DNA from: Loxodes magnus
Taxonomy: Eukaryota > Ciliophora > Karyorelictea > Loxodida > Loxodidae
NCBI GenBank assembly: GCA_946699065.1
Contig: CAMPDV010000010.1
Location: 1,550,001-1,614,000 of the forward strand
Reading direction: 5' to 3'
DNA length: 64,000 nucleotides
The position numbers and the translations under genes were made by a program. Below, piece by piece: positions 1,614-55,955 of this stretch; position 1 is the first letter of the stretch; every line of letters starts with the position of its first letter. The notes beneath the pieces were generated by a model. The model saw only the letters and a program-made list of their open reading frames with translations. It made no database searches and was not told the origin of the DNA.

Positions 1614-4226
1614 TCAATCAATGTACCTATATCCTTTCCAGTCCTCAGAAGGTTTCCCATTAAACTCTTGAATAAATCTCTAAAGATTCTTACTTGGACC
1701 ATCATCTGGAAATATGTCTAGACACAATTTTAACAATTCTAACGCTTCAGTTCAATTTCCTCTTTCATATTATGTGACTGCCTCTTTAAAATTTGAGTAT
1801 AGTTAGAATGGAATTTTCTTCTGCATATAAACTAAATCAGCATCTGTCTTTCAGATTATAGCTGCATCAATTAATTTCCCACTACTGTCAGATTATATTT
1901 TATCTTGGTCACTTATTTTAATTATTTGTCCAATATTATGATTTTCTGGCATTGAAGCGGATTCATCAGAAGTATCAAAAGTGTAAATAGGCTAAAGTTA
2001 AATACTTACAAATGGATCTTCTATTTCTGCAATCTAAATAACATCTATTTTTCTTGCATTGTTTTAAGCTTATTCACTCATTATCTCATAAAATTATTAC
2101 GATACTATTATTTTAACTTCGTAGATATCAAGTGCTGCATTAACTAACCTTTCAACCACTTTTTAATGCCTACTAATATAAGCAGCTTCGATCTTGTAAT
2201 CCAAAGATCCTATAACTCCTTCTATTGCTGTTCCTACATGTAATGCAAGTCCAATTTTTACTCGATAGTTTTCTTTGTATTTCTATATTTTAGGATGTCT
2301 TTAGTAGGCTGATATATCAGATGCCCTTTAAATTTCAGCTACTATCTTAATAAAACTTATTAATGCTTTATCAGCTTACTCTTATACTTCTGACTTAGAC
2401 TTTTTATCATTCTATATCTCTTAAAAGTCTTCTTGTTAAAGTAAATATTCCTTATCCTCACCTTTATCTTCATTTTCTTCATTTTCTTCATTTCCTTCAT
2501 TTTCTTTTTCTTCCTTAGGCAAACTATTATATTCTTAAAGTTGACTCTATTAGTCTTAAGTATCTCCTGGTAACCTTCAGATAATTAAATAAGATCCAAA
2601 ATTATTATTTTAAGGACATCCTTATCAAGCTGTCGCGCATTTATGAACAACATTGCTTATCTTATTGAAAAACACTAATACTTCGTCCATTAGCTATTCA
2701 GTAATCATTGAAAAATCCTAGACTTAGCATCAACCAAATATTATGTTTATCTTTTCCCCTTAATTCATTAAGTCTAAATTTCCCTAAGTCTTCTTTAATC
2801 ATTTCCTTATTATTTTAGTGCCATCCTCTCCAAAGCTATGTATAGACAACATTCTAATTTTACGAATTTACTACTCCAGTATACTTTTTGGTGCTTATTT
2901 GTCCTTTTTCTTTTTTAAAGGGTTATTTGCTAGCTATTCAACCAATGTTATCATAGAAGATATGGGTACTATTATAATTCTTTCGATATCTAACGTGAGG
3001 GTAAAATTCGCACCTGCTATTACAAATCCTACAAACACTGTAATCACCATGTTATAAATAGCCTAGTTTTTAGTATCAGCTCTTATGTCAAACCTAGCAT
3101 AAGCTTAAAGATTATCACAACCAATATCTTGTTCTGTGCAGATTCTAGGATTATAAACTATAAGCTCCATCTCTTCAGTTCTTAGTTCACATTTATCTGA
3201 TATTTGCTTTAAAGCACAATGTTCGTCTTAGTTCCAAATCCTGTTTTTTTTCTTATCCTTTACTACTTACAAAATGTTTCCCATCTTCCCTCCGTTAGTG
3301 AAGTCCGGCATATAAAGCCATAACAGAGGATACCTAGCATCTTCTCCTTCTTTATCCTCTGAATTTCTTGAATACCTTCATAATAAATCATTTCATCCAT
3401 ATACATTAACCCAAGGAATGGGAGAAGAATCACAAGCTAAATTATCCAAACCCGTACAATTAGACCTACCAATCCAAAAGATCTATTACAACCCATAGTT
3501 CTTCGCATTATCAATAGGCACCTACTACAAGATAGGGAGGAAGAACAATATGGCGAGAACAAGAATGATAACTCTCCTAGTAGTTTTATCAGATAGTTTT
3601 TTACCAAGCATAGCAGGTTCCATTTCCCTCTGTTAATCATTGGTATGAGTTTTAGAATTACTATTAATTTAATAGTTTTATAAAGATTTTTACGATGACT
3701 GAGCATCTATATCATCTATCTTAGTTTTAACACAGTATTTATATAACTTTACGATACGAATCAACCTAATTAATCTAAAACTTTTAAGTAGTTTTTGAAT
3801 GTTATTAGCGGCTGAGTCTTATCGCTTCCCACTGGTCTAGTGATCTACCTCTACTGTTTTTCTTTCTATATGAAACACTTGGTAAAAGGGTTCTATCACC
3901 CATGGTATGTCTATAATTAGTGATAAAGTGGCAATTAGATCTAACCAGAAAAAAAATTAGAATTTGTAATTATCGAAGACTAAAGAGTTTACTACAAGCT
4001 CTAGGGAAAAAAGCACTAGGCAAACCATAAAAGTTGAGTAAAAGGCCTTATCAGATGGTAAAGTGGTAAAACATAATCGTACATCATCTCCAAAAAGCGC
4101 TCAAAGTGTAAAAAGTGTCATGATGATTGTAACTCATTTTCCATCAGAAAAATCACGTAACCTCTATCTTAATCTAGTTTCATGCTCAAAAGAATGGTTT
4201 TTTTCTGAGCCAACTTTCGTACTCAT
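1614..4226 (-). CDS. Class III adenylyl/guanylyl cyclase-like protein with N-terminal membrane domain, probably catalytically inactive
   Basis: There is one uninterrupted frame of 871 codons with no intron, starting at ATG 4226-4224 and ending at TGA 1616-1614. Several internal TGA read as Trp (TLWALFGDD, IFGWCQVQDF, ATAWQGCP). Residues about 30-250 carry membrane segments resembling the channel-like N-terminus of large ciliate cyclases, with a juxtamembrane stretch SDKTTRRVIILVLAILFF. A second membrane-proximal region (ERIIIVPISSMITL) precedes the cyclase homology domain, recognisable by GLALHVGTAIEGVIGS and a C-terminal DWKGYRYID. Both metal-binding aspartates appear lost: the usual FxFCDI reads FGWCQV, and the second NIGD-type motif reads NNFGSY. 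By family it would make cAMP or cGMP at a membrane; as read it is more likely a regulatory pseudo-cyclase. Its first 244 bp are duplicated as stubs in the next two units. Confidence 0.82.
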
Positions 4227-4947
4227 GTTAAACTTTTTTTAACTCATGTATTTATATATTAAACACTTAATTAGCCTTATAAACTTCTAATTCTGACTTA
4301 TTTCTACTTAATCAATAATAACAAAAATGCTAGTTTTTAAGTAATATTCTAAACTAAAATATAATAACACAAACAACTGAAAAGCAAAAGATAAAATTGT
4401 CTAGTTTAGATAGGATGCTGAAATTGCTTTTCTGGCTTTATTTTTTGCGTTAATTTTAAGTATTAAACTTAGCATATTTAACTAAAGGAAGATTTTTTAT
4501 TTTAGGTGTTCTACTATAAGTATATATGTTAACTCTCTATCTTGAATCCGAAGAGTTTTGATTAGGTAAGCTAAGCAATTAATAGAAATTGATTGATTGA
4601 GCTGACTACATAAAATGCTGAAGTCTGAAGATTTCAGTAATATAAACTAAAATTAGCTCAAAAAGAAAACTTAGCAGCAATAGGATTAAATTCACTCAAC
4701 TAAAATGTAGCAAAAAGTGTAAGATTAAAGATAAATCTTATATGCTATCAAATAGTAAATAGCTTAAAATTTCAAAAGCAAAACAAGAATTATAAATATA
4801 CTTCACCACTTAAACTAGTTTCGTACCATACTATATTATTTAGCGTTTGAATTGTTAAAGTTATAGTTATAGTGGTAATATAGTAAAGCTATTCTTTAGT
4901 TTTATTCTTTAAAGTAAAATAAGGCAAATTTAAATGAAGAGTAAGGG
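4227..4947. other. No gene seen (cyclase 5' flank to ARPC2 3' end)
   Basis: AT-rich DNA upstream of the cyclase start, present in all three units with small differences. It probably holds the cyclase promoter and the ARPC2 3' flank. No protein-like frame, RNA gene or repeat was recognised. The same holds for 22269-22989 and 40582-41302. Confidence 0.6.
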
Positions 4948-6012
4948 TCATCTTGTGGTAGGATTAAAACTAATACTCGGTCTACTCGAAATGTAATTAA
5001 ACTATGCCTTCCACAACGTGTTTCTTCTAATCTCAGTAGTAACGGATTTCTTTCCTTTCACGTCCTTGTAGGTTTTTCCTTTCTACTCTGGAATGGCTCT
5101 GTTCAAAACTTGTAATCAGGCATCCATTCTTCTACGCATTCTTTAATGTAGATATGTCTTAGCAGCATGGAGTTAGAACTAGAGGTATTAGCGAAAGCCA
5201 GCCATGATTTGAGCTTTTGTAGCTGTGCTCTGTTATGACTTTATAATTTGCTCCTCAAGAATTGTTAATGTTAAGTACCCTTATTAACTTTCTCTAGGAG
5301 TAAAGTCAGATAAATGATTTGGTTGCTTTTCACTAAAGCTTGAAATAGGAGCATTTGCTACATGTTTGTGTACATCCAAAAATTCCTATAAACGTGTTTC
5401 ACTTATAAAGTTAACTTACCGCTATAAAGACCCTTAGCATAGCTGCATCAGTCTAGTCTTTAAAGTTGAGTGTGAATGTTATGAAGATTCTCTAATTAGC
5501 TGGAACTATGAAATAGTACTCTTCTCTTGGCATCTGACATTCTATAGCTTTGAAGCTTGCTAACTGCTTATTCTTCAAGGCATCAAGAGCGTTTTGAATG
5601 GGAGCTCCTATAAAACTTAACCTGAAAGTAGCCAAAATCTAAGCTATATGCGTGACAAGCTATTCTCTCTCCTATGTTTAGACATCAGGAAGTAACTTTG
5701 CATCTATCACCACTGTAAAATTACTGTCTTCCACTGGTTCTTTAACTTCAAATAGTTAAGGCTTAAAAACTCTATCTATATAGCTCTTAGAGCCAAATTT
5801 CATGAAGGAGTCAAAGAATTGATAGTAAACCGAAAAGCTAAAGAACATGTTTTTTAGTTCAATTTTATAGCAAAAATCATCATAGTCACGAGTCATAAAT
5901 CCCACTTGCTATGTTTCTTAGATGGGATTTCTGAATATCAAGTAACTAAAACTTACATCAAAATATCATATACCTTTGTATATGTATCCAGATGCACTGG
6001 GTTAAGTTCCAT
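4948..6012 (-). CDS. ARPC2: ARPC2, Arp2/3 complex 34 kDa subunit (intact copy)
   Basis: Subunit of the Arp2/3 complex that nucleates branched actin filaments; ARPC2 forms the core that contacts the mother filament. The product is 334 residues against about 300 usually. The C-terminal helix is diagnostic: FRQYLQFQLHAAKTYLHQRM, then a VLNRA motif, matches the human pattern of a dyad ending in SRMR/TRMR and VLNRA. Introns of 26 nt (5931-5956) and 34 nt (5386-5419), both GT..AG, restore a frame of 335 codons. The Trp before LQVLNRA is TGA (5116-5118) here but TGG in units B and C, so the copies differ synonymously. This is the only unit that retains a 110-bp coding segment (5212-5321). Start ATG is 6012-6010. 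Confidence 0.88.
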
Positions 6013-6353
6013 TTTAATTTATTTAACTTATATTTAAATAAAATACTTTCCCATTGCTAGTCTCTCATTTCTATTCCTATTTTTAAACTAGCAATTCATA
6101 CTTTAAACATCATCAACACGTTTTATAGTGATCCTCAGATACAATTGCACTCTGTACTACTCCATCAATTTTCGCGTCTTAATTATTAAAATACCATAAG
6201 TGTCACTTTTTTAAGTTTAACACCAAAATATTTTTAGACAAAACGACTAATTAAATTTACTTAAACGGCTTAATAAAACATATGAAGAGATGCTCTTATG
6301 AGGATAATTAGTTTTAATTTAGCTTTTAAATAAATATGATTATGTTATGTTCT

Positions 6354-7396
6354 TCAGTCCTTCTTTACTGTCTTGCTTGATTCGTTAGTCTTCTATATTT
6401 CATCCTCCTATTTTTTCCCCTTATTTGCTTGAGCTTACTATTGCATTGCTAAATATTTACTTGCTGAATAGATAAAAGAGCCAGCCATACTTAGAGAGAG
6501 TCCTATTATTAGATTTCTAGTTATAATCACATCTCCGAATAAGAATCCTAGTAATGTACCTACGATACTCTTAACCTCTCCTGTCATAGCAGTAGTTAGA
6601 GGTGAATTGATTATGTTATTCATGTTGATTGTAATACTCAAGAAAATTCCTAAAGAGCAAGAGCCTAAAAATACAAGCCAGAAATTAGGATCTGCATATT
6701 TATCATAGTTCGCTAGTCTTGTTGATTCAGCCAAAATAGTAAGGACTAGAAGAATAGGAATGCCAGTTAAACTGTTATAATAGGTTTAAGTCATAGCATT
6801 GCTTCCCATATTGCTCTACTTAGCTATTTAGGCACTTTTCTAGAATTATAAAGTAGTGAAGGTGTTGTTTAAAATAACAAACACATATCCAAATATATCT
6901 GCAGTAAGATCATTCAAGGCTGCAATAGTAGTGCCTATCGCGATCATTATAATCGAAATGGTGACTCCAATAGATGACTTTTTCTTTAAGAAAAAGATGT
7001 CATACAAGTATATTTGGCAGGTATTAAATCTTCTAAGAGCAATAAACATTGGAACGTTTACTAAGCTTAAGCCTGCTACTCCACAACATACATTGCATAG
7101 GAAATAAATTGTCAAATTGTATTAGTATTTCAAAGCAGTCCATGAGAAACTTGGCATTTCTACTGAGTGAATAAGGGTACCAGGTTTATGTCCCTTTGGA
7201 ATTATAATCTTAACAATCTCGCATACGAAAACATTGACAATAAACTAGGCCAGCAGAATCTTTAAATAATAAAACTTACAGTGAAGGTAAATTTAAAAGA
7301 GTAAGCAGTAAAAAGCATCTTGTTTATCATAGTCAGAAATAGGGAAATGCTTCCGTTTGATAAACAAATCAAAAACGCGTTCAATGAGTCAGACAT
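6354..7396 (-). CDS. Nucleotide-sugar transporter, SLC35/VRG4/GONST-like (unit A)
   Basis: A multipass Golgi/ER transporter that by family exchanges nucleotide-sugars (GDP-Man, UDP-GlcNAc or similar) for the nucleoside monophosphate. It encodes 340 residues, the usual length, with about ten hydrophobic segments. Family hallmarks are FIALRRFNT, IAALNDLTADIFGYVFV, and NSPLTTAMTGEVK followed by a glycine-rich segment and SASKY. A 20-nt intron (7260-7279, GTAAGT..AAAG) restores the frame; the total is then exactly 341 codons. The C-tail is Gln/Lys-rich and ends at TGA 6356-6354. Copies in units B and C differ by a few residues and are also intact, which suggests selection on this gene. Substrate cannot be read from the sequence. 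Confidence 0.88.
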
Positions 7397-7887
7397 TATT
7401 ATTAATTAATTTACTAAACTTTAAGTTAAAACAATATATTAAATAACTGTTAAGAAACTGATCATTTTAGATTAGAATGTTTTTTCCTTTGTAGAAAAGA
7501 AAGGAGCTTATAATAATTTGATGGGCTGTGTATCTTTATATGAAAAATGTTAGTGGGTTCTGATTAAAAAAGCGAAAATTTAATAGCACTAAATCAATAT
7601 ATTTATTTTAAAATACCAATATAGTTTAGTAGCATAAACACATTTTAAAAATACTGCTATAAAAATTTAAGAAATATGCAAGATGAATAAGTTAAAATAA
7701 AAATATGTATGAATACTTACTTTATTTAATTAACTCGTATTTAATATTATTGAGTTATAAAATAGATTTCTGATTGATGCTTTCGGAGTGAAATGGAAGA
7801 TATAGAGATAATATTTTAGATTCTTCCTATGATAAAATTGTAAATTAATGAAGTTAATTCTACTGAAACATTCTGAATAGCCATTCA
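7397..7887. other. No gene seen (between transporter and gene X)
   Basis: AT-rich intergenic DNA, presumably the transporter promoter and the gene X 3' flank. The copies (25337-25834, 43650-44147) differ by small indels not in multiples of three, as expected for non-coding DNA. Confidence 0.6.
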
Positions 7888-9079
7888 TCAACTCCCTTTA
7901 TTTTTATTTGACTTTCCTTTTTGTCGTTATCCACCTACTTACTTCCTTCTATATATTTTACACTTATAAATGAGTTAGTTTTAACTTCAATTTATGTCTC
8001 TTTTTTCTTGATTTAATCTAAATTTTTTATGCTTTTTTGATTTTATTAATTACCATTTATTACTTTATGCTAAAAAGGTTAGCTTTTAAGTTTCTAATTC
8101 TTATTTAATGTTAATTACTTCCATTTATGGAATTTCTTATTGATATAGATAAGAAAGATTTTCTTTAGTTTTTCCTTTATCACTATTTACTAACTCTAGA
8201 ACTAGCGTAGTATTCTTAAGGATTTAGTTACTAAGACTCTTTAATAATGCTAATACCCAACTCTCATTTATTGCTTTACCATTTTTTGGTATTTCTTTCA
8301 GACCTTAAAAGCGAAGCATAAACCAGCAGGTAATTCAGTTTAAATCTCCTCTAAGGTTTACTGACTAGCTTGCTTTATTTACATTAGTAAACTTTACTTC
8401 TTAGCAATTTACTTTTTATCTGTCAGTGTTTTGTTAATTTCTTAGTTGGTTTAATTTTATTTGTCTTACTACTTTTTTAGCTGTTTCCATTTATGGAAAG
8501 TTAAAAGAAGAATCTTCTGTTAATAGAAGTATTTAGAAATCTAAAGTTTAGCTATTCCTTTTATAGAGAACTACTAAATAGCAAGTCATCCCAGTTTTAT
8601 CTTACTTAAATACCATTCTACAGTTTTGTGATTTACTATCATCATAAGTCTCTACAGTTTTTATTAGACATTTTGTAGGTAAAAGATATCCTTTTCTCTC
8701 TTTCCTTCACTTATCTATCTCTTTTTCTCGTTCTACCTTTTTTTACTCATACATCCTCCATTTCTCTTTTCCTATAAGTTATCCATCTGTTAAAAATTAT
8801 GCCTCTCTTCTCCTTGTTACTCTAATTAGCGCTAATCTTTATAAGAAAGCTGCTAAACTGCTTCAACTACTATTTCATTATTCCTTTAGATAGGAAATTT
8901 AAATTTACTACATTGGGATAAATCCTCACGCGCATTATCATATGATTAGTTAACAAAGAAATCGTTAGAATCTTTCGAATCATCCTCATAATTTAGCAAT
9001 GCCTGATCTATTGATACGCACTAATTTAGTCTTCTTTACTTATTCCAATCAAGTCATTATGAGAAATATACTTTTTGTA
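7888..9079 (-). pseudogene. Gene X, 3' fragment (unit A)
   Basis: The 3' part of an unrecognised gene whose full version is in unit C (44148-46012). The acidic segment NYEDDSKDSNDFFVNQ, a Gln/Glu/Lys-rich stretch, a 20-nt intron and the C-terminal Lys/Arg/Gln-rich tail to TGA 7890-7888 are retained. The 5' half is gone: the sequence is joined directly to the K+ channel at about 9080, out of frame with it. Length differences from B and C in the last exon are multiples of three, consistent with coding history. Confidence 0.68.
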
Positions 9080-9747
9080 TAGAACTGAGTTGTAGTAGTA
9101 GTCTACATGTGACTGTGTTGGAGGGTTATAGTTTTAAAAAGTTTGATTATAAAGCATCAAATTAGGATGGATAGCGTTTATTATAATCTCTCTTATCATA
9201 AGCTTTCTCATACCTACTTATTTCAAAGTTTCTACTTCTCCATATGTTCACTTTGCCTTGAAGAAATCCAGCTCAGAGTTATACCTCATTTTAATCCCAA
9301 TGAGTAATATCAAAGTGGAAAAACTCGAAAGAATTAAGTAAAATTTAGCAGCTTGTGTACTAAAAGGCCATTCAGAGAATAGTTAATTTCCTGTAAGTTC
9401 ATATTCAAAAATTCCAGCAGCAATACCAGTCACAGACCACAAGCAGTTAATGAGAGTAAACAACTTTATTTTTTCCAAGTTATGAGCTATTTTCTGCTAC
9501 CCTTCAAACTAAATCTTGCCTACTGTTTTCCTTCTTTTCAACAGCATTTCATCCTCTTGGTATATTTTCACACTATAACCTGTTTATGTAGAGCTATGTC
9601 TAGAAAACGTAAACCACTTAGCCCTATTTCGTATTATACTATCATATATACTATCATATATACTATCATATATACTATCATATATACTATCTGTCTATGA
9701 AAGAGTTTTCTAATATTATAGCTTACCTATTTATTAAGATGCGACAT
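9080..9747 (-). pseudogene. K+ channel 5' fragment (unit A)
   Basis: The N-terminal third of the SK-like channel described in unit C: start ATG 9747-9745, MSHLNK, a short GTAAGC..TTAG intron, then two hydrophobic segments and the SVDYYYNS region. The pore and C-terminus are missing because about 2.9 kb present in C is absent here. A CAA/TAA Gln codon in C/B is TGA in A, so this copy also carries a Gln-to-Trp (or stop) change. It contains four copies of an in-frame tetrapeptide repeat (see 9637-9692). Confidence 0.78.
9637..9692 (-). repeat. 12-bp coding minisatellite (DSIY)n in the channel N-terminus
   Basis: The tandem ACTATCATATAT unit encodes Asp-Ser-Ile-Tyr on the minus strand. Four full units plus a partial occur here and in unit B (about 27595-27650). 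Unit C has a single degenerate unit (about 48855-48872). All length differences keep the reading frame. Confidence 0.85.
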
Positions 9748-12679: not shown

Positions 12680-13068
12680 CTCAAGACTATTACATCTTTA
12701 TACTAAATAAGTGGCCTCGTTATATAATCTTAGCAAGTCTATGGATGACAGTCGTTATAGAGAATTTCTTTATCATTGCATTAAGGCATCATTATTCAAT
12801 CGGTTTGGTCATAGGAGCTTACATCTCTGCTTTATTATATAACGACTACATGCATCTAAACTGGGATCCTTTTCTCTAGATTTCAGAAAAAATAGACAAG
12901 AAAGGCGGAAAGCTCTCTAAGACTCAATACTCCTCATAAGAGAAAGCAATCAGGGAAGCTAATAAAAAGAAGTGTAAACTAAGAAAGAAAATAAAGAGAT
13001 TAATGATAGCTAAAATGTAGAAATACAGATGTATTAATTAAAGCTAGAAGAGGAATAAGACAAATGAT
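12680..13068 (+). pseudogene. Sphingomyelin-synthase-like 3' fragment (unit A)
   Basis: This matches the last part of the synthase in unit C (from DYYIFILNKWPR onward) and lacks everything upstream, including the first His motif. The catalytic HHYSID motif reads HHYSIG here, so the acid residue is lost, and the acidic C-terminal tail is out of frame. Joined to a retroelement fragment on the left, it cannot make a working enzyme. Confidence 0.8.
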
Positions 13069-13277
13069 ACAAGTATCTTACATTTAATTATAATTTAAAT
13101 AGCCAAAGAAACTTATTCAGTTTTGCCCTTATTAGATATATGCTAACTTAATAATAAGTCTAATGAGTATATTCTATTCTGTATTTATCGTAATGAATCA
13201 TATAGAGTCAAAGATAGAGAACATTTAGATATGATTTTTTAAAGGATTTAGATAGAATGAAATAATGAGAATTCTAA

Positions 13278-14202: not shown

Positions 14203-15180
14203 AATAATAATAATATTAATTTTAAGTTTTCTGTTTTAGGGATTTCCAACCCCGTCAGGAAGACAGCAGTTCATGCTCCCTGCTGTTAAATATAAAAGTT
14301 CGGGTCGCCCAATTTTAGCGAGATTGGGAACTCAGATTTTTCAAGGTTTTCCCTCCTTTAACTTGCCTTGATTCCATCTTAATCTTGTATATTGAACCAT
14401 CCGGGTTGCAATACATTCTTTTCATTCTTGCTTCTTCTTTTGTTCTTCTTTTGTTGTTCTTTTATCCAATAGTTTCTTTATTTATATTAGAATTTCTAAC
14501 ACTTCCGATAAAAATGTCATACACTTCCACAGAAGAAACATTTCTTTTTTATTTTTAATTATTTTCCTTGATTTGTTTGCTCTTCCTAGGCTTCGATTTC
14601 CATTTGTATAGCTACAGTTTCGCTTTACTCTTTCTTAAAGTTTGCAATTTCTCTTCTACTTTTCCGAGTCTGTTATCCAGTTCAGTCTGTTTCTAAAACT
14701 GATTTTAGGATTCGTTAATCTGACTTTGTGAGCTATTTCAAAAGGCGTTAAGATCTCTTTCCTAGGACATAAATCTTGACTTTATTTCTTCTGCTAGGTC
14801 TAGCTTTGTCATCAGCATATCATTGTCCTTCTTCAATCTCTTGACCTCTTCCTGGAGGTTCAGTACCACTTTGATGAGCTACTCCATGCTCATCTGGCCA
14901 GAAGGGTTGAACTCTGATACCTTCTGGTGGAGAACAGACTTCATCTGTTTCCTCGGTTTCTCGTTTGAGGTTGGAATTTCCGTGTGTATATTCTTCAAGG
15001 TTGGCTTTCGTTCGTTTTGTTATATTCCAAGTTGTTAGTTCAGTGTTGGTTAAGGTTGTGATAGAGAAGATTGTTAAGATTATTAAGACTTGATTTCTTG
15101 CTTGCTCCCTTCCTTTTTGGCTTAGGAAGAGGTGTTATAGAAGCCTGACTTGAAACTTTCAACTATTTTTTTAATTATAG
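14203..15180 (-). mobile_element. ORF1-only retroelement, 978 bp (unit A)
   Basis: Minus-strand insertion flanked by 12-bp AATCATAAGTAT duplications (14191-14202 and 15181-15192), with an (ATT)n tail at the left end. ORF1 starts at ATG 14944-14942 with a coiled coil (VVLNLQEEVKRLKKDNDM). In a neighbouring frame lies a CCHC zinc knuckle, CFFCGSVWHFYRKC (spacing C-X2-C-X4-H-X4-C, Trp as TGA). The frame change between the two suggests decay. By family, LINE ORF1 is an RNA-binding gag-like protein. No endonuclease or reverse transcriptase is present, so mobilisation would depend on an ORF2 in trans. Absent from unit C. Confidence 0.8.
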
Positions 15181-17899
15181 AATCATAAGTATTAAATGTT
15201 CTTAATTTAATTAAAAAGAGTTAATTTAAAATATAAATAAAAAAGTTTGAAATATAGAATTCACTAGTTTTTAATAATGACTCTTCTTTAATTAATTTCA
15301 AAGAAACTGCAAATTTATTGGAAAAGCAAAGGCAGGAGCAATAAAACCTACAAACGAAAGATTGAAGTTGATACAAATTGAATAAGTAAACCTAATAATG
15401 AATTTACTAAGGTTACTACTTAAAAATTGTAGTCACAAACTGGAAAACAAATTTATACATATTACTTTAAAACTGCTTAGAAGCTCTATTCAACGTGGGC
15501 ATTAATTGTAGCGTATTATGAAAGTGAAAATAACCTATAAACAGATAGACAGATTAACCACCTAAAATAGTACCGCCAAAGATACGAAACAATTACCCAA
15601 GAAATGTTTCTAAAAATTTGATATAATCCTAGATAGTTAGAATTCTAAAGATATAGCTTCAAATCCTATCTAAATTAAAATAAAGATATCCTTTTATGGT
15701 AGTCAAAAAGAACATGAACTTAAGATTAATGCTTGAATAATGCTAATTGATAATTCTATTAAATTTAAAATAACGAAATTAGTCAGAAATAAAACAATGT
15801 TACTGGTACTGCTAATTAAAATAATCATTATTTACCTGATCTTTAAAACAAACAACCTTAAAATTAAACTGCTGACTTAAGAAATGTAATATAAATAGAA
15901 TAATTAATTAGTCTAATGAAAACTAGATTACTTAAGAAATAAAGGTACTTAAACATAATATAAAAAGACTAATAGATAAGAACCAATAGATAAATGAAAG
16001 ACTAGTTAATATAAAAGCAAATATGAACGAGATGTTTAAACTTAGATAAATAACAAAGAAATATCAAAAGTATATTATAACATTTATGTAAATTACATTT
16101 ATTAGAAATCTAAACTATTATAGAGCAATTTTTAGTCACTCAAATCTGATATGTAGCAATATCAAAATAACTAGTTCATAAAATTACTTAAACAAACTTC
16201 TTCACATATTAGAGTAGAAAAATAGTTTAAACGGATGAAATAATGAGTATAGTTAAAGAAATTTAGATGTAATAGAAAACTATGAGAATTAAGTAAATTA
16301 AATAGATTAACTATAATCTAATTAAGAGATTAAAAGCCAATGCTAATTAAAGCTTAAATGATAGGAGCAAATAATTCATAACGATAAAGCTTTAATAAAA
16401 TTATAAATTTTACTTAAATTGAAACAGATAACTTTCTAAATAAAACTTATCAGTGGTAATAGTAGATCATATTAAAACAGTACTAATATTTACTTCAACA
16501 AGATACCTAATAACAAATAATAGCCGAATCTGAACAGTTATATTCTTAATATTAAAAACTATAAAACTAAAGAAAGTAATTTATAGATTGATATTAAAAA
16601 GCTTAAATGGATATTTTAACTTTGGATATCCAATTAGATAAGTAAAGATAATAAAACTATGAAATAAATATAACTTTTCAAAATTAATTCTATTAGAAAT
16701 AAGGAAATTCAAACGATTAGAGAATTAGTTTAAAATTAATCTAGCATATAAGAGAATCAGTAATTTTGGAAGAAGTAATACGCAAATGCATAAATTTAAA
16801 CTTGATATGGATATATCTAAAGAGATAATTCAAATTAATAATAAACAGCTTTTCTGTGTAAAAAATTTACTCAAACAAATATAATCAAGCAATACAAGTT
16901 AATTTAAACTTAAAATAACTAATAGGAAGCATCAACTAGTACTATTATATCAAAGAACTAATACTGTCAAGTTAAATTGCTAGATGAAGATTTTGTTTTA
17001 CTATAGCATTAATATCACTAACTCAACTTAAATTTCAATTAAATTAAATTTCCAAAAATATGTAGACACTTGAGATAATAAACCAGGAGTTTTAAAAACT
17101 TAATTCAAATTTGATAAAAGATATATTTAATTATTCTACTAAAAACTGGAAAAAGGTTAATAAAACTAAATAGATTTGATTGATGTTATTTATAAGAATT
17201 AAAAGTTACTTTCATATATTAATCTTAATATTCTTAAAAGGAAACATGAAGAAGAAGATAAATAATTAAACAAGCAAACGTGTGATTAAACATAATAATA
17301 AAAAAAAATGATTAAATAATATGTTATTTCAATCTAACTGTCTATAACTTTAAGCATTTATTAAATCAGAAACTTGAAGATGACCATAGTATGAAATTTA
17401 CAATATATAAGGTAGATATGTCACAGTTACTTAAGATTTAGAATAAGGTACATGTGATAGTGTTAAAAGTAAAATTGATATAGATAGAAAGTTACTTTAA
17501 AAATATAAGACGTAAGTAATATATATTTTGATACAATATTTTTATTACATCCTGAGCATGGAAAAAGATTAGTACATATTTAGATTAACCAATAAGGATA
17601 AAAGTGTTTCTGTATTTACGAAATTGGACTACTTGCAGAATCGGAAAAAATTAGAAAGGACTAATAAATTAAAAATTTGGAGATGGAACATATAAGTATT
17701 AATGGAATGGCTAGCAAGTGCTTGAATATTGAAGAATTATCAGAGATAATAGTATAGATATTTTTTCAATAAACGAAACAAGATAAAAAGAAAATTTTCC
17801 TCCAATATTGATAAATGGATTTAAAACATATTTTAAGAACTTAGGGAAAGGAGAAGATGTACGCCTAATTGTAGCAGAATAATTGAATACTACAGAATG

Positions 17900-21900: not shown

Positions 21901-22002
21901 TAAAGAAAAATGATGAGATTAAGACAATAATAAAAACAATTTAAATACATCTACTAGCGCCTTTAATTGAAAGAAGCAATTCTTGCAATTAAAGACGTCA
22001 AA

Positions 22003-40581: not shown

Positions 40582-41302
40582 GTTAAACTTTTTTTAACTC
40601 ATGTATTTATATATTAAACACTTAATTAGCCTTATAAACTTCTAATTCTGACTTATTTCTACTTAATCAATAATAACAAAAATGCTAGTTTTTAAGTAAT
40701 ATTCTAAACTAAAATATAATAACACAAACAACTGAAAAGCAAAAGATAAAATTGTCTAGTTTAGATAGGATGCTGAAATTGCTTTTCTGGCTTTATTTTT
40801 CGCGTTAATTTTAAGTATTAAACTTAGCATATTTAACTAAAGAAAGATTGTTTATTTTAGGTGTTCTACTATATGTATATATGTTAACTCTCTATCTTGA
40901 ATCCGAAGAGTTTTGATTAGGTAAGTTAAATAATTAATAGAAATTGATTGATTGAGCTGACTACATAAAATGCTTAAGTCTAAAGATTTCAGTAATATAA
41001 ACTAAAATTAGCTCAAAAAGAAAACTTAGCAGCAATAGGATTAAATTCACTCAACGAAAATGTAGCAAAAAGTGTAAGATTAAAGATAAATCTTATATGC
41101 TATCAAATAGTAAATAGCTTAAAATTTCAAAAGCAAAACAAGAATTATAAATATACTTCATCACTTAAACTAGTTTCGTACCATACTATATTATTTAGCG
41201 TTTGAATTGTTAAAGTTATAGTTATAGTGGTAATATAGTAAAGCTATTCTTTAGTTTTATTCTTTAAAGTAAAATAAGGCAAATTTAAATGAAGAGTAAG
41301 GG

Positions 41303-42257: not shown

Positions 42258-42606
42258 TTTAATTTATTTAACTTATATTTAAATAAAATACTTTCCCATT
42301 GCTAGTCTCTCATTTCTATTCCTATTTTTCAACTAGCAATTCATACTTTAAACATCATCAACACGTTTTATAGTGATCCTCAGATACAATTGCACTCTGT
42401 ACTACTCCATCAATTTTCGTGTCTTAATTATTAAAATACCATAAGTAAAGCACCGTCACTTTTTTAAGTTTAACACCAAAATATTTTTAGACAAAACGAC
42501 TAATTAAATTTACTTAAACGGCTTAATAAAACATATGAAGAGATGCTCTTATGAGGATAATTAGTTTTAATTTAGCTTTTAAATAAATATGATTATGTTA
42601 TGTTCT

Positions 42607-43649
42607 TCAGTCCTTCTTTACTGTCTTGCTTGATTCGTTAGTCTTCTATACTTCGTCCTCCTATTTTTTTCCCTTGTTTGCTTGAACTTATTATTGCATT
42701 GCTAAATATTTACTTGCTGAATAGATAAGAGAACCAGCCATACTTAGAGAGAGTCCTATTATTAGATTTCTAGTTATAATCACATCTCCGAATAAGAATC
42801 CTAGTAATGTACCTACGATATTCTTAACCTCTCCTGTCATAGCAGTAGTTAGAGGTGAATTGAGTATGTTATTCATGTTGATTGTAATACTCAAGAAAAT
42901 TCCTAAAGAGCAAGAGCCTAAAAATACAAGCCAGAAATTAGGATCTGCATATTTATCATAGTTCGCTAGTCTTGTTGATTCAGCCAAAATAGTAAGGACT
43001 AGAAGAATAGGAATGCCAGTTAAACTGTTATAATAGGTTTAAGTCATAGCATTGCTTCCCATATTGCTCTGCTTAGCTATTTAGGCACTTTTCTAGAATT
43101 ATAAAGTAGTGAAGGTGTTGTTTAAAATAACAAACACATATCCAAATATATCTGCAGTAAGATCATTCAAGGCTGCAATAGTAGTGCCTATCGCGATCAT
43201 TATAATCGAAATGGTGACTCCAATAGATGACTTTTTCTTTAAGAAAAAGATGTCATACAAGTATATTTGGCAGGTATTAAATCTTCTAAGAGCAATAAAC
43301 ATTGGAACGTTTACTAAGCTTAAGCCTGCTACTCCACAACATACATTGCATAGGAAATAAATTGTCAAATTGTATTAGTATTTCAAAGCAGTCCATGAGA
43401 AACTTGGCATTTCTACTGAGTGAATAAGGGTACCAGGTTTATGTCCCTTTGGAATTATAATCTTAACAATCTCGCATACGAAAACATTGACAATAAACTA
43501 GGCCAGCAGAATCTTTAAATAAGAAAACTTACAGTGAAGGTAAATCTAAAAGAGTAAGCAGTAAAAAGCATCTTGTTTATCATAGTCAAAGATAGGGAAA
43601 TGCTTCCGTTTGATAAGCAAATCAAAAACGCGGTCAATGAGTCAGACAT
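42607..43649 (-). CDS. Nucleotide-sugar transporter (unit C)
   Basis: Third intact 340-residue copy, with a protein the same as unit B wherever I compared them, a 20-nt intron and a TGA stop. Three intact copies would raise gene dosage if all are expressed. Confidence 0.87.
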
Positions 43650-44147
43650 TATTATTAATTAATTTTCTAAACTTTAAGTTAAAACAAATATATAAACATA
43701 CTGCTAAGAAACTGATCATTTTAGATTAGAATGTTTTTTCCTTTGTAGAAAAGAAAGGAGCTTATAATAATTTGATGGGCGGTGTATCTTAAGATGAAAA
43801 ATGTTAGTGGAATAGTAGTTCTGATTAAAAGGGCTAAAATCTAATGATATTAATCAATATATTTATTTTAAAATACCAATATAGTTTAGTAGCATTAACA
43901 CATTTTAAAAATACTGCTATAAAAATTTAAGAAATATGGAAGATGAATAAGTTAAAATAAAAATATGTATGAATACTTACTTTATTTAATTAACTCGTAT
44001 TTAATATTATTGAGTTATAAAATAGATTTCTGATTGATGCTTTCGGAGTGAAATGGAAGATATAGAGATAATATTTTAGATTCTTCATATGATAAAATTG
44101 TAAATTAATGAAGTTAATTCTACTGAAACATTCTGAATAGCCATTCA

Positions 44148-46012
44148 TCAACTCCCTTTATTTTTATTTGACTTTCCTTTTTGTCGTTATCCACCTACTT
44201 ACTTCCTTCTATCTATTTTACACTTATAAATGAGTTAGTTTTACCTTCTATCTATTTTACACTTATAAATGAGTTAGTTTTACCTTCTATTTCTGTCTGT
44301 AATTCTGTCTCTTTTTTCTTGATTTAATCTAAAGTTTTTATGTTTGTTTGATTTTATTAATTACCATTTATTACTTTATGCTAAAAAGGTTAGCTTTTAA
44401 GTTTCTAATTCTTATTTAATGTTAATTACTTCCATTTATGGAATTTCTTATTGATATAGATAAGAAAGATTTTCTTTAGTTTTTCCTTTATCACTATTTA
44501 CTAACTCTAGGACTAGCGTAGTATTCTTAAGGATTTAGTTACTAAGACTCTTTAATAATGCTGATAGCCAACTCTCATTTATTGCTTTACCATTTTTTGG
44601 TATTTCTTTCAGACCTTAAAAGCGAAGCATAAACCAGCAGGTAATTCAGTTTAAATATCCTCTAAGGTTTACTGACTAGCTTGCTTTATTTACATTAGCA
44701 AACTTTACTTCTTAGCAATTTACTTTTTATCTGTCAGTGTTTTGTTAATTTCTTAGTTGGTTTAATTTTATTTTTCTTACTACTTTTTTAGCTGTTTCCA
44801 TTTATGGAAAGTTAAAAGAAGAACCTTCTGTTAATAGAAGTATTTAGAAATCTAAAGTTTAGCTATTCCTTTTATAGAGAACTACTAAATAGCAAGTCAT
44901 CCCAGTTTTATCTTACTTAAATACCATTCTACAGTTTTGTGATTTACTATCATCATAAGTCTCTACAGTTTTTATTAGACATTTTGTAGGTAAAAGATAT
45001 CCTTTTCTCTCTTTCCTTCACTTATCTATCTCTTTTTCTCGTTCTACCTTTTTTTACTCATGCATCCTCCATTTCTCTTTTCCTATAAGTTATCCATCTG
45101 TTAAAAATGATGCCTCTCTTCTCCTTGTTACTCTAATTAGCGCTAATCTTTATAAGAAAGCCGCTAAACTGCTTCAACTACTATTTCATTATTCCTTTAG
45201 ATAGGAAATTTAAATTTACTACATTGGGATAAATCCTCACGCCCATTATCATATGATTAGTTAGCAAAGAAATCGTTAGAATCTTTCGAATCATCCTCAT
45301 AATTTAGCAATGCCTGATCTATTGATACGCACTAATTTAGTCTTCTTTACTTATTCCAATCAAGTCATTAGGAAAAATATACTTTCTGTATAACCCAATT
45401 TCTCTTTACTATATCTTAAATATCCTTTAATTTCTCCTTCTCATTCTATTGCTTCATTAATCTCCATACTGATACTAGCCTCTGTGATATCTAATGCTAG
45501 ATAGATTAAGATAGTATCACCAATTTCTAGTTTACCACCATTCTTTCTATATCATTCTATCTTAGCGCTTATCCTATTTTTTTACCTTATTTTGGAAGTT
45601 TAACTATACATGGCTGTTGTTTTTTAGGAGTGCAAACTACTGAACTCTAGTATGAGATAAATTACTTATCCTTCTTGTTTCGATTCCTGACTCTTCTATT
45701 TCTACATGAAATCAGCGATCTTACTCTGTTTTAACTTTCATATCTTAGTTCTCCTGCCTTACTTCTTTACTTCTGGTATAACTTAATTATCCTTGCTATT
45801 TTATCCACTTTTTACTTCTTTTCTACGAAGGAGCGATTGACAGCATTAGTTTAACTTCTACTCACTTTTGGGTTTTACTAAATAGAATCACTAACACTTT
45901 TATCTTATTTTTTAGGCTCTTAATGAGACTTTAGAATGGGATGTATTTTATCAAACTTGGTTAGCCTGTTCTTAACAGACTACAGAATGGAGTTTTAATT
46001 CTTAGCTTTCAT
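44148..46012 (-). CDS. Gene X, unrecognised protein (complete copy)
   Basis: I do not recognise this family. Starting at ATG 46012-46010, four GT..AG introns of 19 nt (45744-45762), 25 nt (45561-45585), 19 nt (45332-45350) and 20 nt (45002-45021) leave exactly 594 codons. Visible features are a basic N-terminus, a charged motif DRWFHVEIEESGIETRRIS, and a compact hydrophobic/charged region KLEIGDTILIYLALDITEA. After that come an acidic stretch NYEDDSKDSNDFF, a Gln/Glu-rich region, and a Lys/Arg/Gln-rich tail ending at TGA 44150-44148. A 39-bp tandem duplication in the tail is in frame. The start is uncertain; similar codon use extends some way upstream. A and B keep only its 3' part. Confidence 0.6.
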
Positions 46013-46475
46013 TTATTACTTCTGAACTATAAGTACTTTAAAATAAACTAGCTAGAGAAATTACTTTAAAGGGCTATATTTAGACTTTTAGAAAGTATCA
46101 CTAAAGGAAGAAAGGCTAATTGATACTCTATAGACTAGCTATAGAGAGAGCTATCGTTAATACTTGCTACTCTCTTCATCTTCTTTAGCTTTACAAGTAT
46201 AAAGTTGATAGATATACTCATTACCTCATGCTCTGGTAGTATAAGTATAGAAGCCAGAAATAGTAAAGCTAAAATTACACTTTACAAGACAATATTTTGA
46301 TGGTTCTGTAGATACACAAGAGTAGGTTATAATAACACTGCTGTAGCAGGAGATAGAATTCCTATTCCTTTCTACCTAAATAATCTTATAATAGCAGCTT
46401 TTAAAAGATACTAACAGTGTTGCTTTCTAGAGGAATCTAAAAGTTTACATTATTAACTAAATAAAAATAACTAAA
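46013..46475. promoter_or_regulatory. Intergenic between divergent genes
   Basis: This lies between gene X (-) and the small basic-protein gene (+) and so probably holds both promoters, unless gene X starts further upstream. No motif was recognised. Confidence 0.35.
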
Positions 46476-47099
46476 ATGAGCAATAATCAAAGGTTAACTA
46501 GTCTTAACCAGAGTGCAAAGTAAAAAAGCTTAAATATTCGAGTTAAGAACAGTACCAAGGATAAACCTCTTACACTTTAAGAACTTGAATCGCCAATAGA
46601 TCAGAGGCAGTCATTTTAAAAATAAAGACGTTCATGAACACTAAATCAGTAGAATAGAAGTTACTCTATTAATCTAGTGAACAAGAGTCTTGATGTCTCC
46701 AATATCAATAATTATAAGTCATGTTTTATTAGCTCCTTTATTAAAAAGTTTGAAAGTCCTAAAATGGTAAAAGCTGATCATTAACTTGAGTAATATGCAA
46801 AGAAATCTCTAGAAATGCTGCAAGAACCTAAAAAGACTACATTAAGGAATTAGAGCTCTAATTAAAAGATAGACCCTTTCAGCTCCTAAAGCAATTTATA
46901 TCTTAAATAAAAAAAAGACATCAAAAAGGATAACTCTGGTTCCTAACTCAGCAAAGGTAACATTAGCTTCCAAAAAACTAAAACTAATTTGATCAAGTTG
47001 AAGAAAAGGAAGGTATCAGTGAATATTTTACTAGATAAGTTTCCTGAATTAAAAACTTTTTGTAGTAAGCCAATCAATGGAAGGAAATCAATGATTTGA
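46476..47099 (+). CDS. Small basic Ser/Asn/Lys-rich protein, unknown
   Basis: Intronless frame of 208 codons from ATG 46476-46478 to TGA 47097-47099, with TAR as Gln and one TGA as Trp (RRSWTLNQQNRSYS). Rich in Lys, Ser, Asn and Gln, with RRxS/T-like sites that kinases could use and a short hydrophobic patch CFISSFIKKFE; no signal peptide or membrane segment. I do not recognise a family. It is unique to unit C and convergent with the channel gene 106 bp away. The absence of frame-shifting features and a clean ATG-to-TGA span support it. Confidence 0.55.
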
Positions 47100-47205
47100 T
47101 GCAAATCAAATTGCTTATAAAATTTTTCTTTTTACTTATTCTTTTTCACTTTACTACATCTCTTTTTCCATTTTACCCTTTAGGCCAAAACTCAATCATC
47201 TGACT

Positions 47206-48929
47206 TCATTTTATTGAAACTTATTATAAACATACCTTTGTATTTATATTGTATGTATTTGCATATTCAATTTTACTTACCATTTACAAAATATTATCAC
47301 TACAAGTTTACTTTTGATATATCAAAAAGAATGAAAAGATAAAAACAAACTAGATTGTTTAGTCGTCAAGTGTTCTTATATCATAGTCTTTCTAACTAAG
47401 TTACTCTACTTTATCTATTTCTTTTGATTACTGAAAGTTTACTTGCTTAATGGTTACTCTCTTAACGCTTTATTTACTCATGTCAGTTTTAGCTCTTTAC
47501 TTATTATCGTATTCTTGTTCCAGATTTCTCACTCTTTTAAATATGTTTTAGCATATGGTTCCAATGTCGTCTACTTTGCGTGTCATAATATCTGCGTCTT
47601 TTTTCAATAGTCTTATGTTATGGTAAATATTCGCTTCTGAATCCGCGTCTTTCAAACTACGTACATAGATTAAACGTTTCTTCTAGAAAGACAGGCAAGA
47701 ACTTCTGAACTTAGAGAAGAAGATTCCTATCATTTCTGGAGAATGTTTCATTCTTTTTTTTACGCAATAGTACTTAAATCCTTCTGCAATAACCTAAGAG
47801 GCTAAATTTGATAGTTCCTCTTTAAGCTTTAATCTATTTAGCAAGGTGAAACTTTTAGATTCACTCTTAGAAAAAGAAAGCATAGAGTTAACTATTATAA
47901 CCATAAAGCTCACTATAATAACACCTCAAAAGCAAACATTGACACCCACAAGTCTTCCTGTTTAAGTTACAGGATAATAGTCTCCATATCCTACTGTAGT
48001 CATTGTAACAACTACATTTCACATGCAGTTTCAAAAATTGCCGAAGTCCATTCCTGTTATTTAAGACAGAGGCCTCTCACAAATTCTTATAACATACGAA
48101 TTAATCAGCAATATTGTAATTAACAGATATGAAAGTACCTTCTGAGGATTGTTTTCCATCTTGCATTTTATCGAAAAAAGAGAATCCGCTATACATGAAT
48201 ACATTTCACATACTCTGTAAGCTCTCATGTTACAGAATTCACTTTCATAAATTCAGTGATCAATCAGGTGGCTTAATCTGTAAAAGCTTATGACAAGTAG
48301 AACTGAGTTGTAGTAGTAGTCTACATGTGACTGTGTTGGAGGGTTATAGTTTTAAAAAGTTTGATTATAAAGCATCAAATTAGGATGGATAGCGTTTATT
48401 ATAATCTCTCTTATCATAAGCTTTCTCATACCTACTGATTTCAAAGTTTCTACTTCTCCATATGTTTGCTTTGCCTTGAAGAAATCCAGCTCAGAGTTAT
48501 ACCTCATTTTAATCCCAATGAGTAATATAAAGGTGGAAAAGCTCGAAAGAATTAAGCAAAATTTAGCAGCTTGTGTACTAAAAGGCCATTCAGAGAATAG
48601 TTAATTTCCTGTAAGTTCATATTCAAAAATTCCAGCAGCAATACCAGTCACAGACCACAAGCAGTTAATGAGAGTAAACAACTTTATTTTTTCCAAGTTA
48701 TGAGCTATTTTCTGCTACCCTTCAAACTAAATCTTGCCTACTGTTTTCCTTCTTTTCAACAGCATTTCATCCTCTTGGTATATTTTCACACTATAACCTG
48801 TTTATGTAGAGCTATGTCTAGAAAACGTAAACCACTTAGCTCTATTTCGTATTATACTATCATATATATTATCTGTCTATGAAAGAGTTTTCTAATATTA
48901 TAGCTTACCTATTTATTAAGATGCGACAT
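47206..48929 (-). CDS. SK-like small-conductance K+ channel (complete copy)
   Basis: A six-segment potassium channel subunit of the small-conductance, calmodulin-gated type, expected in the plasma or ciliary membrane as a tetramer. Start ATG 48929-48927; a 17-nt intron (48892-48908) follows codon 7; 568 residues in all. Early segments (LFTLINCLWSVTGIAAGIFE, YLILSSFSTLILLIGIK), then LDFFKAKQTYG as in SK S2-S3. The pore reads FWNCMWNVVVTMTTVGYGDY, with the GYG filter and both Trp encoded by TGA (48031-48033, 48019-48021); S6 is GVIIVSFMVIIVNSML. The C-terminus has basic and heptad-like helices (LLNRLKLKEELSNL; NLEQEYDNKQ) where SK channels bind calmodulin. Stop TGA 47208-47206. A and B hold only the 5' third. 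Confidence 0.87.
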
Positions 48930-52840: not shown

Positions 52841-53263
52841 GTTTGAGAATTGACAGGATATTTACTGATATAAAGGATCGCAAAAGTAAATAAAAATGGA
52901 AAAGTTTACAATTTATTAAAAGTTAAATCTAAATAAACAAGATGGTAAATAAATTCCAAGGTACTCATATTATAATAATAATACGAAAGTAAATTAAGTT
53001 AAAACTATTCATATGATGAGGATGTGTTTAGAAGTTAATTAAATGAATAATACTTTAATCCTTAATAATTAATCCATCTTTATGTTAAAAGATAGTATTC
53101 GCTAGGAGTTTTAACGTGATATTTTGAAAAGATAAAAAGCTTATTTCTATATCTAAGAAGGATTAATTTTCTAATGCAAGAGCGATTTATTTTTCATTGA
53201 ATATATTTAAATCAGATCTAAAATTCATATACTAAAGGCATATTTTTTCAATAATCACTAAAG
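52841..53263. promoter_or_regulatory. Intergenic between divergent gene Y and synthase
   Basis: AT-rich DNA likely to hold the promoters of both genes; no motif recognised. Confidence 0.35.
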
Positions 53264-54862
53264 ATGAAGATGTCACTACCCTAAAGTAAAGTTCTGTGGA
53301 TTCTTTGCTGGTTTTACTTTGTGTATGTCATACCTAACAACCTTTCAAACTATTTTTATTATCACAGAAAAATTGTAAGGGATCTTGGTTGGGAGTGAAC
53401 TTATTAACTACCGAAAGATGCTGACTACTTGCCTTTTATTTGTACCATTTTGTCATTTGTGATAGCTATCAAGATAAACAAGCCTAAATTAAGAATTACA
53501 GTCCTTAAGATGTTTCTATTAGGCTATACTTTAAAAGCTGCTACAATTCTATCAACTTAGTTGCCAGATACTCGACCGGAGTGTTGGAATTAGGGGGAAA
53601 AGTTTATAATAGAAGTTTTTTTTTCTTTTCCTATTTATTCCTGTGGAAGCCTGGTTTTCTGTTCTTACACTTTTAATTAGTGTGTACTGGCTACGGTGAG
53701 TCACATTAAATCAAAACAAAAGCTGAAATGAACATTATGAATTCTTATGGCTATTTCGATTTACTGTACATTGTCACAGCGAATGAACTATAGTGTATCT
53801 GTAACGGTTGGTATATATGCGGCTATTTTGGTAGTACTGTATTTCATTGCTCCTTCTTATAATAGAACAACATATCAAATGACATGAAGCAAATTTACTC
53901 TTAGGGATATTTATAATAATGCTAGAGAAAATTTGTGCATTGAATGGTAGGAATTTTAGAAGCATAAATGGCTTTATTGTTATTGTATATGGAGTAGCTT
54001 TTTTAGCTCTTTGTGGAGTAGAAATTTCGCGTATTAAATTCATTAACCGAACCCTTTACTGAATGATCTTTACTTCAAAATTATACCTGAAGCAAACAAA
54101 TCGCTAGAGCTAATTGAAAAGCCAATGTTTTGGTATTAAGGGAAAGTATCATCATGAATTTTTTGTTTGTTATGAATCTAAAAGAAATCTAACGAGAGAC
54201 CAAGTTACATTCAAATTATATTTAGAATATGTTGGTTGTGAACAATATCTCACTTCATGAGAATCTCAACTTATCTACTTACTTCTCTTCCTGGTCCTGA
54301 CGAGCATTGTGTTGCGGGTACAGAACGATTTTGAACTTTGTATGACCCGCCTGATGACTTAATTGATACATTTAGTAGATTTACGACAAGTAAGGTTCAC
54401 TGTGGTGATCTTACATTTTCAGGACATGAAATCCACTTAGTAATATTTATGCTTTTTGCTCAAGACTATTACATCTTTATATTAAATAAGTGGCCTCGTT
54501 ATATAATCTTAGCAAGTCTATGGATGACAGTCTTTATAGAGAATTTCTTTATCATTACATTAAGGCATCATTATTCAATCGATTTGGTCATAGGAACTTA
54601 CATCTCTGTTTTATTATACAACGTATACATGCGTCTATACCGTGATCCTTTTCTCTACGTTTCAGAAAAAATAGACAAGAAAGGTGGAAGGAAAATCCTC
54701 TAAGACTCAGTAGAGGGAAACAACTCCTCATTAAGAGAAAACAGTCAAGGAAGTTCATAAAAAGAAGAGTAGTCTAAGAAAGAAAATAAAAAGATAGATG
54801 ATAGTTAAAATGTAGAAATACAGATTTAGAAATTTAAGCTAGAAGAGGAGGAAGACAAATGA
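53264..54862 (+). CDS. Sphingomyelin-synthase-related protein with two tandem domains
   Basis: One frame of 533 codons, ATG 53264-53266 to TGA 54860-54862, with no intron needed. The second half matches the SMS/SMSr (PAP2-C) fold: NPLLNDLYFKIIPEANKS like the LPD motif, ISTYLLTSLPGPDE, CGDLTFSGHE with the first catalytic His, and HHYSIDLVIGTYIS with the second His and Asp. This enzyme class moves a phospho-head group between lipids at Golgi, ER or plasma membrane. The first half repeats the pattern (ATILSTQLPDTRPECWN; SCGSLVFCSYT; NYSVSVTVGIY), but all three catalytic residues are replaced. A TGA at 53885-53887 lies between the halves and could be Trp (fusion) or stop (two genes). The acidic Lys/Glu tail ends the protein. 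Confidence 0.8.
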
Positions 54863-55955
54863 TACAAGTATCTTACATTTAATTATAATTTAAATCTAAA
54901 TAACTAAATAACTAAATAAACTTACTTAGCTTGCATTTATTAGATATATATTATCTTAATAGTTAGTCTAACGCTTATATCTTAGACTGTATTTATCATA
55001 ATTAATATAGAGTCAATAATTAAGAGAACATTTAGATATTACTTTTTTAATGGATTTGGAAAGAACGAATAATTAGAATAATAGCTGAAGATTAAGGCTA
55101 TTAATGTGAAGGATAAGTATAATTCTGAGTATTTTTAGGAGTATTATTATGTAATTTGCTAATTAGAAATAACTTATTTAATTATTATTATAATAACGGA
55201 AAGGATATAATATTAATTAAGGTTTTAGATATTAAACTCTTTGTAACTTAAATGAGAAACCTACAAACTATCAAGACTTTTAATATTAAAAGGAAAACGA
55301 AAGAGAAAATATACAAAGTGTATATTAGATAGCCTATTTAGAAACTAGAGGATTAAAATATATTCAAATTTGTTTTGATGCTTTTATTACTATGATGCAG
55401 ATAACTAAAGTATTAGAGGAAACCATAAGTATAGAAAGAATAAATGACAGCTCGAAAGTTATTCTAAAAACTAGGAAAGACAGCAGCAAAATTTCTCTTT
55501 GATATTTACAAACATAAATCCGTATAAAAGGCAAAGCCAAAAAGCAATCTGAAGTCTATATAATATAGCATATTAGAAAAAGGGCATTATTATGGAAGAA
55601 TGACAAAATGTTAATATTTTTTTCTAATTCATAAATTAAGAAAGTAAAATCAAAGTATTTCAATGCTCATTGTTTAATTAAAAAGAGTTTCTTTAAAGCT
55701 TAAGTAAAAAGGCTCTATTATGTAAAATATTTTTATACGCTAAATTATGCTTTTAACTCAAATAAGAAGCAAAAATATATCAAGAGATTAGGAAAAATAT
55801 GAAGATGTATGAGAGAAGACGGAGAAGAAGGCATATAGATATTGAAATGGAAGGATAATTTGATTTCTAATAAATTGGATACCGGTAATTTATAATTGTA
55901 TGAGAAAAGGTAGTATAAAAGGGAGTAAAAGTTAAATAAAAATCATATTTTTAAA
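54863..55955. other. No gene seen (synthase 3' flank and ABC promoter)
   Basis: To about 55690 this matches the flank in A and B without their retro-insertions; after that the DNA is unique. Presumably the synthase 3' end and ABC promoter. Nothing coding recognised. Confidence 0.55.

Follow-up and report, generated by a model that had tools for sequence, protein, structure and literature searches.

The window, by which we mean the whole 64,000-nucleotide stretch of the Loxodes magnus assembly that was analysed (C10:1550001-1614000), contains three units, here termed A, B and C, whose starts were located by self-comparison (A 3981 = B 22023 = C 40337). All three are arranged head-to-tail, the two internal joints are identical (22022/22023 and 40336/40337), and the length and identity of the repeats are far above chance level. 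By this comparison, the tandem triplication proposed in an earlier reading of the same letters (the sequence-only reading) is present in the assembled sequence. Each unit opens with a left block, which in A carries the 5′ end of a channel/cyclase-like gene, an intact ARPC2 gene, a transporter gene and the 3′ part of a gene termed X. The right part of the units holds pieces of an SK-type channel gene and a synthase-like gene, with a LINE there in A and B. Coordinates are collected in Table 1.

Table 1. Features of the array and its flanks (positions in the window)
Feature	Unit	Coordinates	Strand	Remarks
Channel/cyclase-like gene	left edge of A	1580..4226	-	spans A's left edge; named by eye, without confident Pfam match; start and end approximate
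Left breakpoint		3981..3990		3982-3990 (AAAGAGTTT) also at C 55682-55690
Left block	A	3981..9080
Left block	B	22023..27040
Left block	C	40337..45393
ARPC2 (PF04045)	A	5002..6012	-	complete; 34-nt and 26-nt introns and start assigned by eye
ARPC2	B	23128..23765	-	broken by 110-bp deletion at 23245/23246
ARPC2	C	41441..42078	-	broken by same deletion as B
TPT/SLC35-like transporter	A	6352..7396	-	intron 7260-7279
Transporter	B	24292..25336	-	open; ends by alignment offset
Transporter	C	42605..43649	-	open; ends by alignment offset
Gene X	C	44139..46225	-	without confident Pfam domain; 5′ end approximate
2.9-kb piece	C only	45394..48297
SK-type Ca-activated K channel	C	47356..48900	-	four TGAs read through; start and stop provisional
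Channel fragment	A	9081..9735	-	without pore, S6 and tail; B copy 27041-27694
Synthase 3′ remnant	A	12680..13070	+	B copy 30642-31030
Synthase-like gene	C	53255..54859	+	single ORF, two PAP2_C stretches
LINE left flank	A	15178..15234		homologous to C 55645-55702, the right breakpoint
Full-length LINE	A/B joint	15235..22022	+	3′ end touches cyclase fragment at 22023
Nested 847-bp element	in A/B-joint LINE	19226-20072
Same LINE	B/C joint	33197..40336	+	start by offset; 857-bp insert and 505-bp deletion relative to A copy
ABCG-type transporter	right of C	55809..57827	+	immediately right of duplication breakpoint; once in window

Whole-assembly searches covered 705,730,643 bases in 7843 contigs. 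A query spanning 5000-8000 returned 7 matches, of which 5 represent the three places in the array and the rest are bits of 64 bp and 195 bp. The X/channel piece returned 12, of which the highest-scoring besides the window's own sequence is 70% identical. The matches listed include no second contig for the 2.9-kb piece, for the left block or, a dispersed repeat inside it excepted, for A 9081-12393 (for the last, the best 40 of 1012 candidates were scored). An interspersed repeat of about 535 bp is inserted at 10739-11254 in A (28697-29215 in B) and is absent from C; it is 93-96% identical to 37 places listed outside the array, of 1012 candidates. No published report of this locus was found in the literature, judged from titles and abstract openings.

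The window fits the karyorelict nuclear code (table 27), in which TAA and TAG encode glutamine and TGA is readable as tryptophan, and the genes of the sequence-only reading therefore need to be judged under this code. Specifically, the channel frame of unit C is open across four TGA codons, one of which aligns with a tryptophan of SK channels, and two more presumably fall at tryptophan positions of ciliate K channels. Furthermore, a TGA codon in the ARPC2 of A corresponds to TGG in B and C. Plain code 6 was rejected on the strength of the open channel frame and the TGA/TGG swap, and a premature stop in the ARPC2 gene of A was rejected because that TGA represents tryptophan. The coding ends of the synthase and the transporter fall at TGA, and those of the channel and ABCG genes have no near TGA downstream. 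We also rejected a reading of the locus as germline DNA interrupted by IESs, in the manner of a scrambled hypotrich micronucleus: the genes are long ORFs once TGA is read as tryptophan, and the small gaps examined are GT-AG introns. The sequences CCCCAAAA and TTTTGGGG were looked for and neither was found, which counts against the same reading. The genome report for L. magnus states, in its passage on the subject, that classical IESs were not detected (PMC11441545).

Judged in this way, ARPC2 is complete in unit A. In B and C it is broken by a common 110-bp deletion, bounded by 8-bp ATGATTTG repeats, which takes away part of the C-terminal region and shifts the frame. A search of the whole assembly with PF04045 (best candidates scored) found six stretches, all inside the array, and no ARPC2 copy outside it. 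Profile positions 2-138 and 137-242 are covered in A only, and B and C are without about 139-200. The earlier claim that ARPC2 is intact only in A is thus borne out.

Gene X and the channel, which had been described as intact only in C, are indeed so, A and B being without the 2.9-kb piece. Its loss removes the start of gene X and deprives the channel of its pore, S6 and tail, such that only the part of gene X up to 9080 in A and 27040 in B is kept. The channel of unit C has a best PDB match at E=1.8e-15. Within gene X, a 39-bp tandem duplication (44205-44290) is found in C only, and a 12-bp in-frame repeat of the channel fragment (9635-9691) is expanded in A and B relative to C by 36 bp. Over this fragment B keeps two states that agree with a paralogous region on another contig (C13) and A and C share the other states, which tells against the history preferred below; the changes are too few for a comparison of synonymous and nonsynonymous substitutions.

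The synthase is likewise intact only in C, as had been stated, since its front is missing in A and B. A separate gene Y, listed beside it in the sequence-only reading, was not found; under the right code this part of C is the one ORF given in Table 1. The ORF aligns with its paralogue on C13 in one frame over 492 residues. In the HHYSID motif of the remnant, which we take to be catalytic, the Asp is changed to Gly in A and kept in B. Across 83 codons of the remnant, with C13 as the outgroup, there are 2 synonymous and 1 nonsynonymous changes on the C lineage, 2 and 7 on the AB lineage, and 0 and 3 on that of A.

The transporter ORF, of 340 codons plus TGA and interrupted by a 20-nt intron, is open in every unit, in agreement with the earlier claim. 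It matches TPT (PF03151) at E=6e-5 and 23 bits, under the 30-bit cut-off, and a phmmer search of PDB gave nothing at E 0.1. A single synonymous change separates the B copy from that of C; from that of A it is separated by 7 synonymous changes and 8 that are nonsynonymous. Because B carries both sets of lesions, the transporter is its sole intact gene, which also had been recognized.

Two additional genes fit this pattern. The channel/cyclase-like gene is whole only at A's edge, with only its 5′ piece recurring at 22023 and 40337, and the ABCG gene is present, within the window, only past the right edge of C. In both fetched paralogues of the former, on contigs C119 and C112, the gene continues across the position equivalent to 3981. 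On C13, channel, synthase, Myb and ankyrin genes follow one another in the order of C and rightward, once each in the 30 kb fetched, and this collinear block has about 67-73% nucleotide identity to the C region, with similarity extending beyond the right end of the window. The continuity on C119 and C112 and the gene order on C13 thus mark the left edge of A and the right edge of C as original, and a single ancestral locus as A-left joined to C-right. Part of the complementarity is the geometry of the breakpoints: after a tandem duplication, a gene cut by the left breakpoint stays whole in the first unit alone, and sequence past the right breakpoint is found only behind the last. The stretches fetched from C13 gave no match to ARPC2, the transporter or ABCG. 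As a separate observation, 46513-63999 is collinear with C13:1161077-1176737 as an old paralogous block, possibly from a large-scale ancient duplication. A repeat-rich part of the cyclase-like gene (2448-2516) resembles short tandem arrays on many contigs.

Divergence among the units changes along their length. In the left block B and C differ by 0.54%, A and B by 1.44%, and A and C by 1.70% (overall range 0.5-1.7%). Of 91 variable sites there, B equals C at 64, A equals B at 19, A equals C at 6, and all differ at 2; the contrast of 64 with 19 has p=7e-7. Beyond 9081, the difference between A and B is 0.81% across 12,431 sites, and C is 6-20% away by block. Up to about 9735, in the channel fragment, A and C are still close, differing at 9 of 618 sites, and from about A 9736 on, A/B versus C behave as an older pair, with 70-99% identity in 100-bp steps. 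A-C divergence is 13-20% in right-part blocks Q3-Q5 and 6% in two other right-part blocks. Coding constraint as the cause of this unevenness is unsupported, as none of eight blocks showed codon periodicity between A and C.

On these comparisons B reads as a mosaic, its left part nearest C and its right part nearest A, and so it carries both lesion sets. The unit is best explained as the product of exchange between an A-like and a C-like copy. One clean exchange is insufficient: the divergence of A from B varies across the right part (45/2998 versus 46/8488, p=1.8e-6), so that more than one exchange, or conversion, is needed. The similarity of A and C throughout the left block, and in the channel fragment to about 9735, makes it probable that the ARPC2 and X/channel deletions postdate a homogenisation of the left half and that the synthase loss predates it. 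Complementary loss within one locus, as the sequence-only reading had it, therefore holds at the level of ORFs, with ARPC2 lacking another copy in the assembly search, but between two complementary copies (A-like and C-like) and not among three.

Both internal joints are occupied by the LINE. The 943 bp preceding each later unit are a high-copy repeat (best 40 of 3932 candidates scored), and the family is 6.04 kb long, three fetched copies (contigs C526, C3085 and C46) being 99.4-99.6% alike. By comparison with these reference copies, the 5′ limit maps to A 15235 (two copies; the alignment of the third is 14 bases longer) and the 3′ limit to 22022-22026. In four other copies examined the flanks diverge right past the last LINE bases, where the cyclase fragment begins here. 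A match to Exo_endo_phos_2 is weak (20.8 bits; cut-off 27.4). On the other side, a 975-bp insert with 12-bp direct repeats breaks the homology to C before the LINE; homology resumes at 15178 and reaches the LINE 5′ end. With its 3′ end at the left breakpoint and its 5′ flank matching C 55645-55702, the LINE therefore appears to bridge both breakpoints. The array LINE is 9-13% from young reference copies, which measures one lineage. A-C divergence, which measures two, is 13-20% in three blocks of the right part and 6% in the other two; the age of the LINE thus appears compatible with that of the duplication in three of the five blocks. Nonallelic homologous recombination between two flanking LINEs was rejected, since neither A's left edge nor C's right edge retains a LINE. 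An 857-bp retroelement piece present in B only (36788-37644) lies between 15-bp direct repeats (TGAAGAAAAATAATA); its similarity to an inverted stretch at 19220-20075 is about 65%, and to C13 near 1157.5 kb it is 67%.

We consider it somewhat better than an even bet (about 55%) that the array derives from two source copies and a recombinant B, through a LINE-bridged tandem duplication followed by reciprocal loss and, after that, by unequal exchange. A block from the 5′ end of the channel/cyclase-like gene to just before the ABCG gene would have been tandemly duplicated to give copy 1 (A-like) and copy 2 (C-like). The likeliest origin would be LINE retrotransposition primed at the 3981 site, with the other end joined to the downstream site (about C 55702) on the sister chromatid. 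The left half would later have been homogenised between the copies, a step that the 1.70% between A and C in the left block, against a more diverged right part, seems to require. Copy 2 would have lost ARPC2 by the 110-bp microhomology deletion, and copy 1 would have lost gene X and the channel by the 2.9-kb deletion, as well as the synthase front. B may then have arisen when the two left blocks exchanged unequally, taking the left part of copy 2 and the right part of copy 1, and a unit so composed would for that reason keep only the transporter. The array structure, the lesions, the original order at the two edges, the affinities of the parts of B, the LINE position and the finding of a complete ARPC2 in A alone are seen in the sequence; the LINE as cause, the order and timing of the events, and B as a real unit are inferred. 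More tentatively, at odds short of even, a LINE retrotransposition in a germline lineage may itself have bridged the two sites and produced the duplication, the copies may have become mutually dependent because one retained what is apparently the sole complete ARPC2 and the other the channel and synthase, and the three-unit array may be one crossover product, the other of which would be a clean single-copy locus.

The alternatives we weighed are not mutually exclusive. One that is possible, if rather doubtful, is that the 9-bp microhomology AAAGAGTTT at both breakpoints produced the duplication and that the LINE inserted into the joint afterwards. The shared 9 bp were read off the sequences, and at least 9 shared bases occurred in 15 of 3000 random window pairs. 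Insertions of this family leave repeats of 17-18 bp in two of three fetched copies and of 9 bp in the third, and the array LINE is flanked by 8 bp (AAAGAGTT) without a clear target-site duplication. A LINE landing at a later time, no more than a few bases from the joint, would leave a similar picture. An independent insertion must, however, have hit a spot about 20 bp or less from the joint in a unit of 18 kb, and no clear 17-bp repeat surrounds the array LINE. The 20 bp left of the LINE match the far side in C at 15 of 20 positions and the cyclase site at 12 of 20.

It is unlikely, in our estimate, that the third unit is an assembly artefact in which each chromosome carries a two-unit array (A-like, C-like) and the haplotypes were strung together, leaving B as a patchwork from the other haplotype. 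The sections of the genome report on the assembly give a heterozygosity of 0.6% for L. magnus and describe collapse at a 96% identity threshold, with no unzipping or phasing (PMC11441545). Differences between copies of 0.5-1% are near that heterozygosity, and the B-C left (0.54%) and A-B right (0.17-2.1%) values bracket it; a haplotig of these sequences is absent among the matches listed. In contrast, B has marks of its own, namely the 857-bp insert with its 15-bp direct repeat and the 505-bp deletion, though alleles could too. The number of units is not secure, as the copy count rests on one unphased assembly. Under such stringing, the two-copy complementary state would still hold. Finally, three ordinary tandem copies decaying at random, with complementarity from chance and breakpoint geometry, are very unlikely: breakpoints by themselves explain the cyclase-like gene and, in part, ABCG, but the ARPC2 and X/channel deletions are shared in opposite groupings (B+C and A+B), which disfavours independent decay.

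The preferred history, with two source copies and a recombinant B, combines features of several known processes. In reciprocal gene loss, or fractionation, most genes of a duplicated block survive as a single working copy, some in one duplicate and some in another. The array resembles this in that its lesions hit different genes in different copies and leave one intact copy of each at the ORF level. It differs in that the losses lie inside one tandem array and were apparently followed by exchange, yielding a unit in which the two lesion sets are combined. Tandem arrays are also known to evolve in concert through unequal exchange, and the close left blocks (0.5-1.7% apart), the more distant right parts (6-20%) and the mosaic middle unit are like products of that process; unlike the usual arrays of this kind, there are here about three units with several unrelated genes in each. 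The LINE, of a 6.04-kb family with 3932 search candidates, is like the L. magnus families that the genome report, where it treats repeats, describes as 5-6-kb non-LTR elements with thousands of copies (PMC11441545). In its account of such events, a study of L1 in human tumours describes tandem duplications whose two ends are bridged by one LINE, as in the array, the cDNA being joined, in the model given there, to a sister-chromatid break downstream of the integration site; it also reports microhomology at the 5′ joint for L1-mediated deletions (PMC7058536). Unlike those cases, the array is in a ciliate, is apparently old, contains a full-length LINE of another family, and has its cause deduced from anatomy only.

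An Arp2/3 subunit, ARPC2, complete in one unit only would mean that the array could not drop that unit without losing the gene. If the array is real, it represents reciprocal loss caught in progress at one locus, where outgroup paralogues polarise the changes, and its mosaic middle unit shows exchange that yields dead-end and clean products. With the proposed origin, it would also provide a case from evolution of the LINE-mediated tandem duplication described in the tumour study (PMC7058536).
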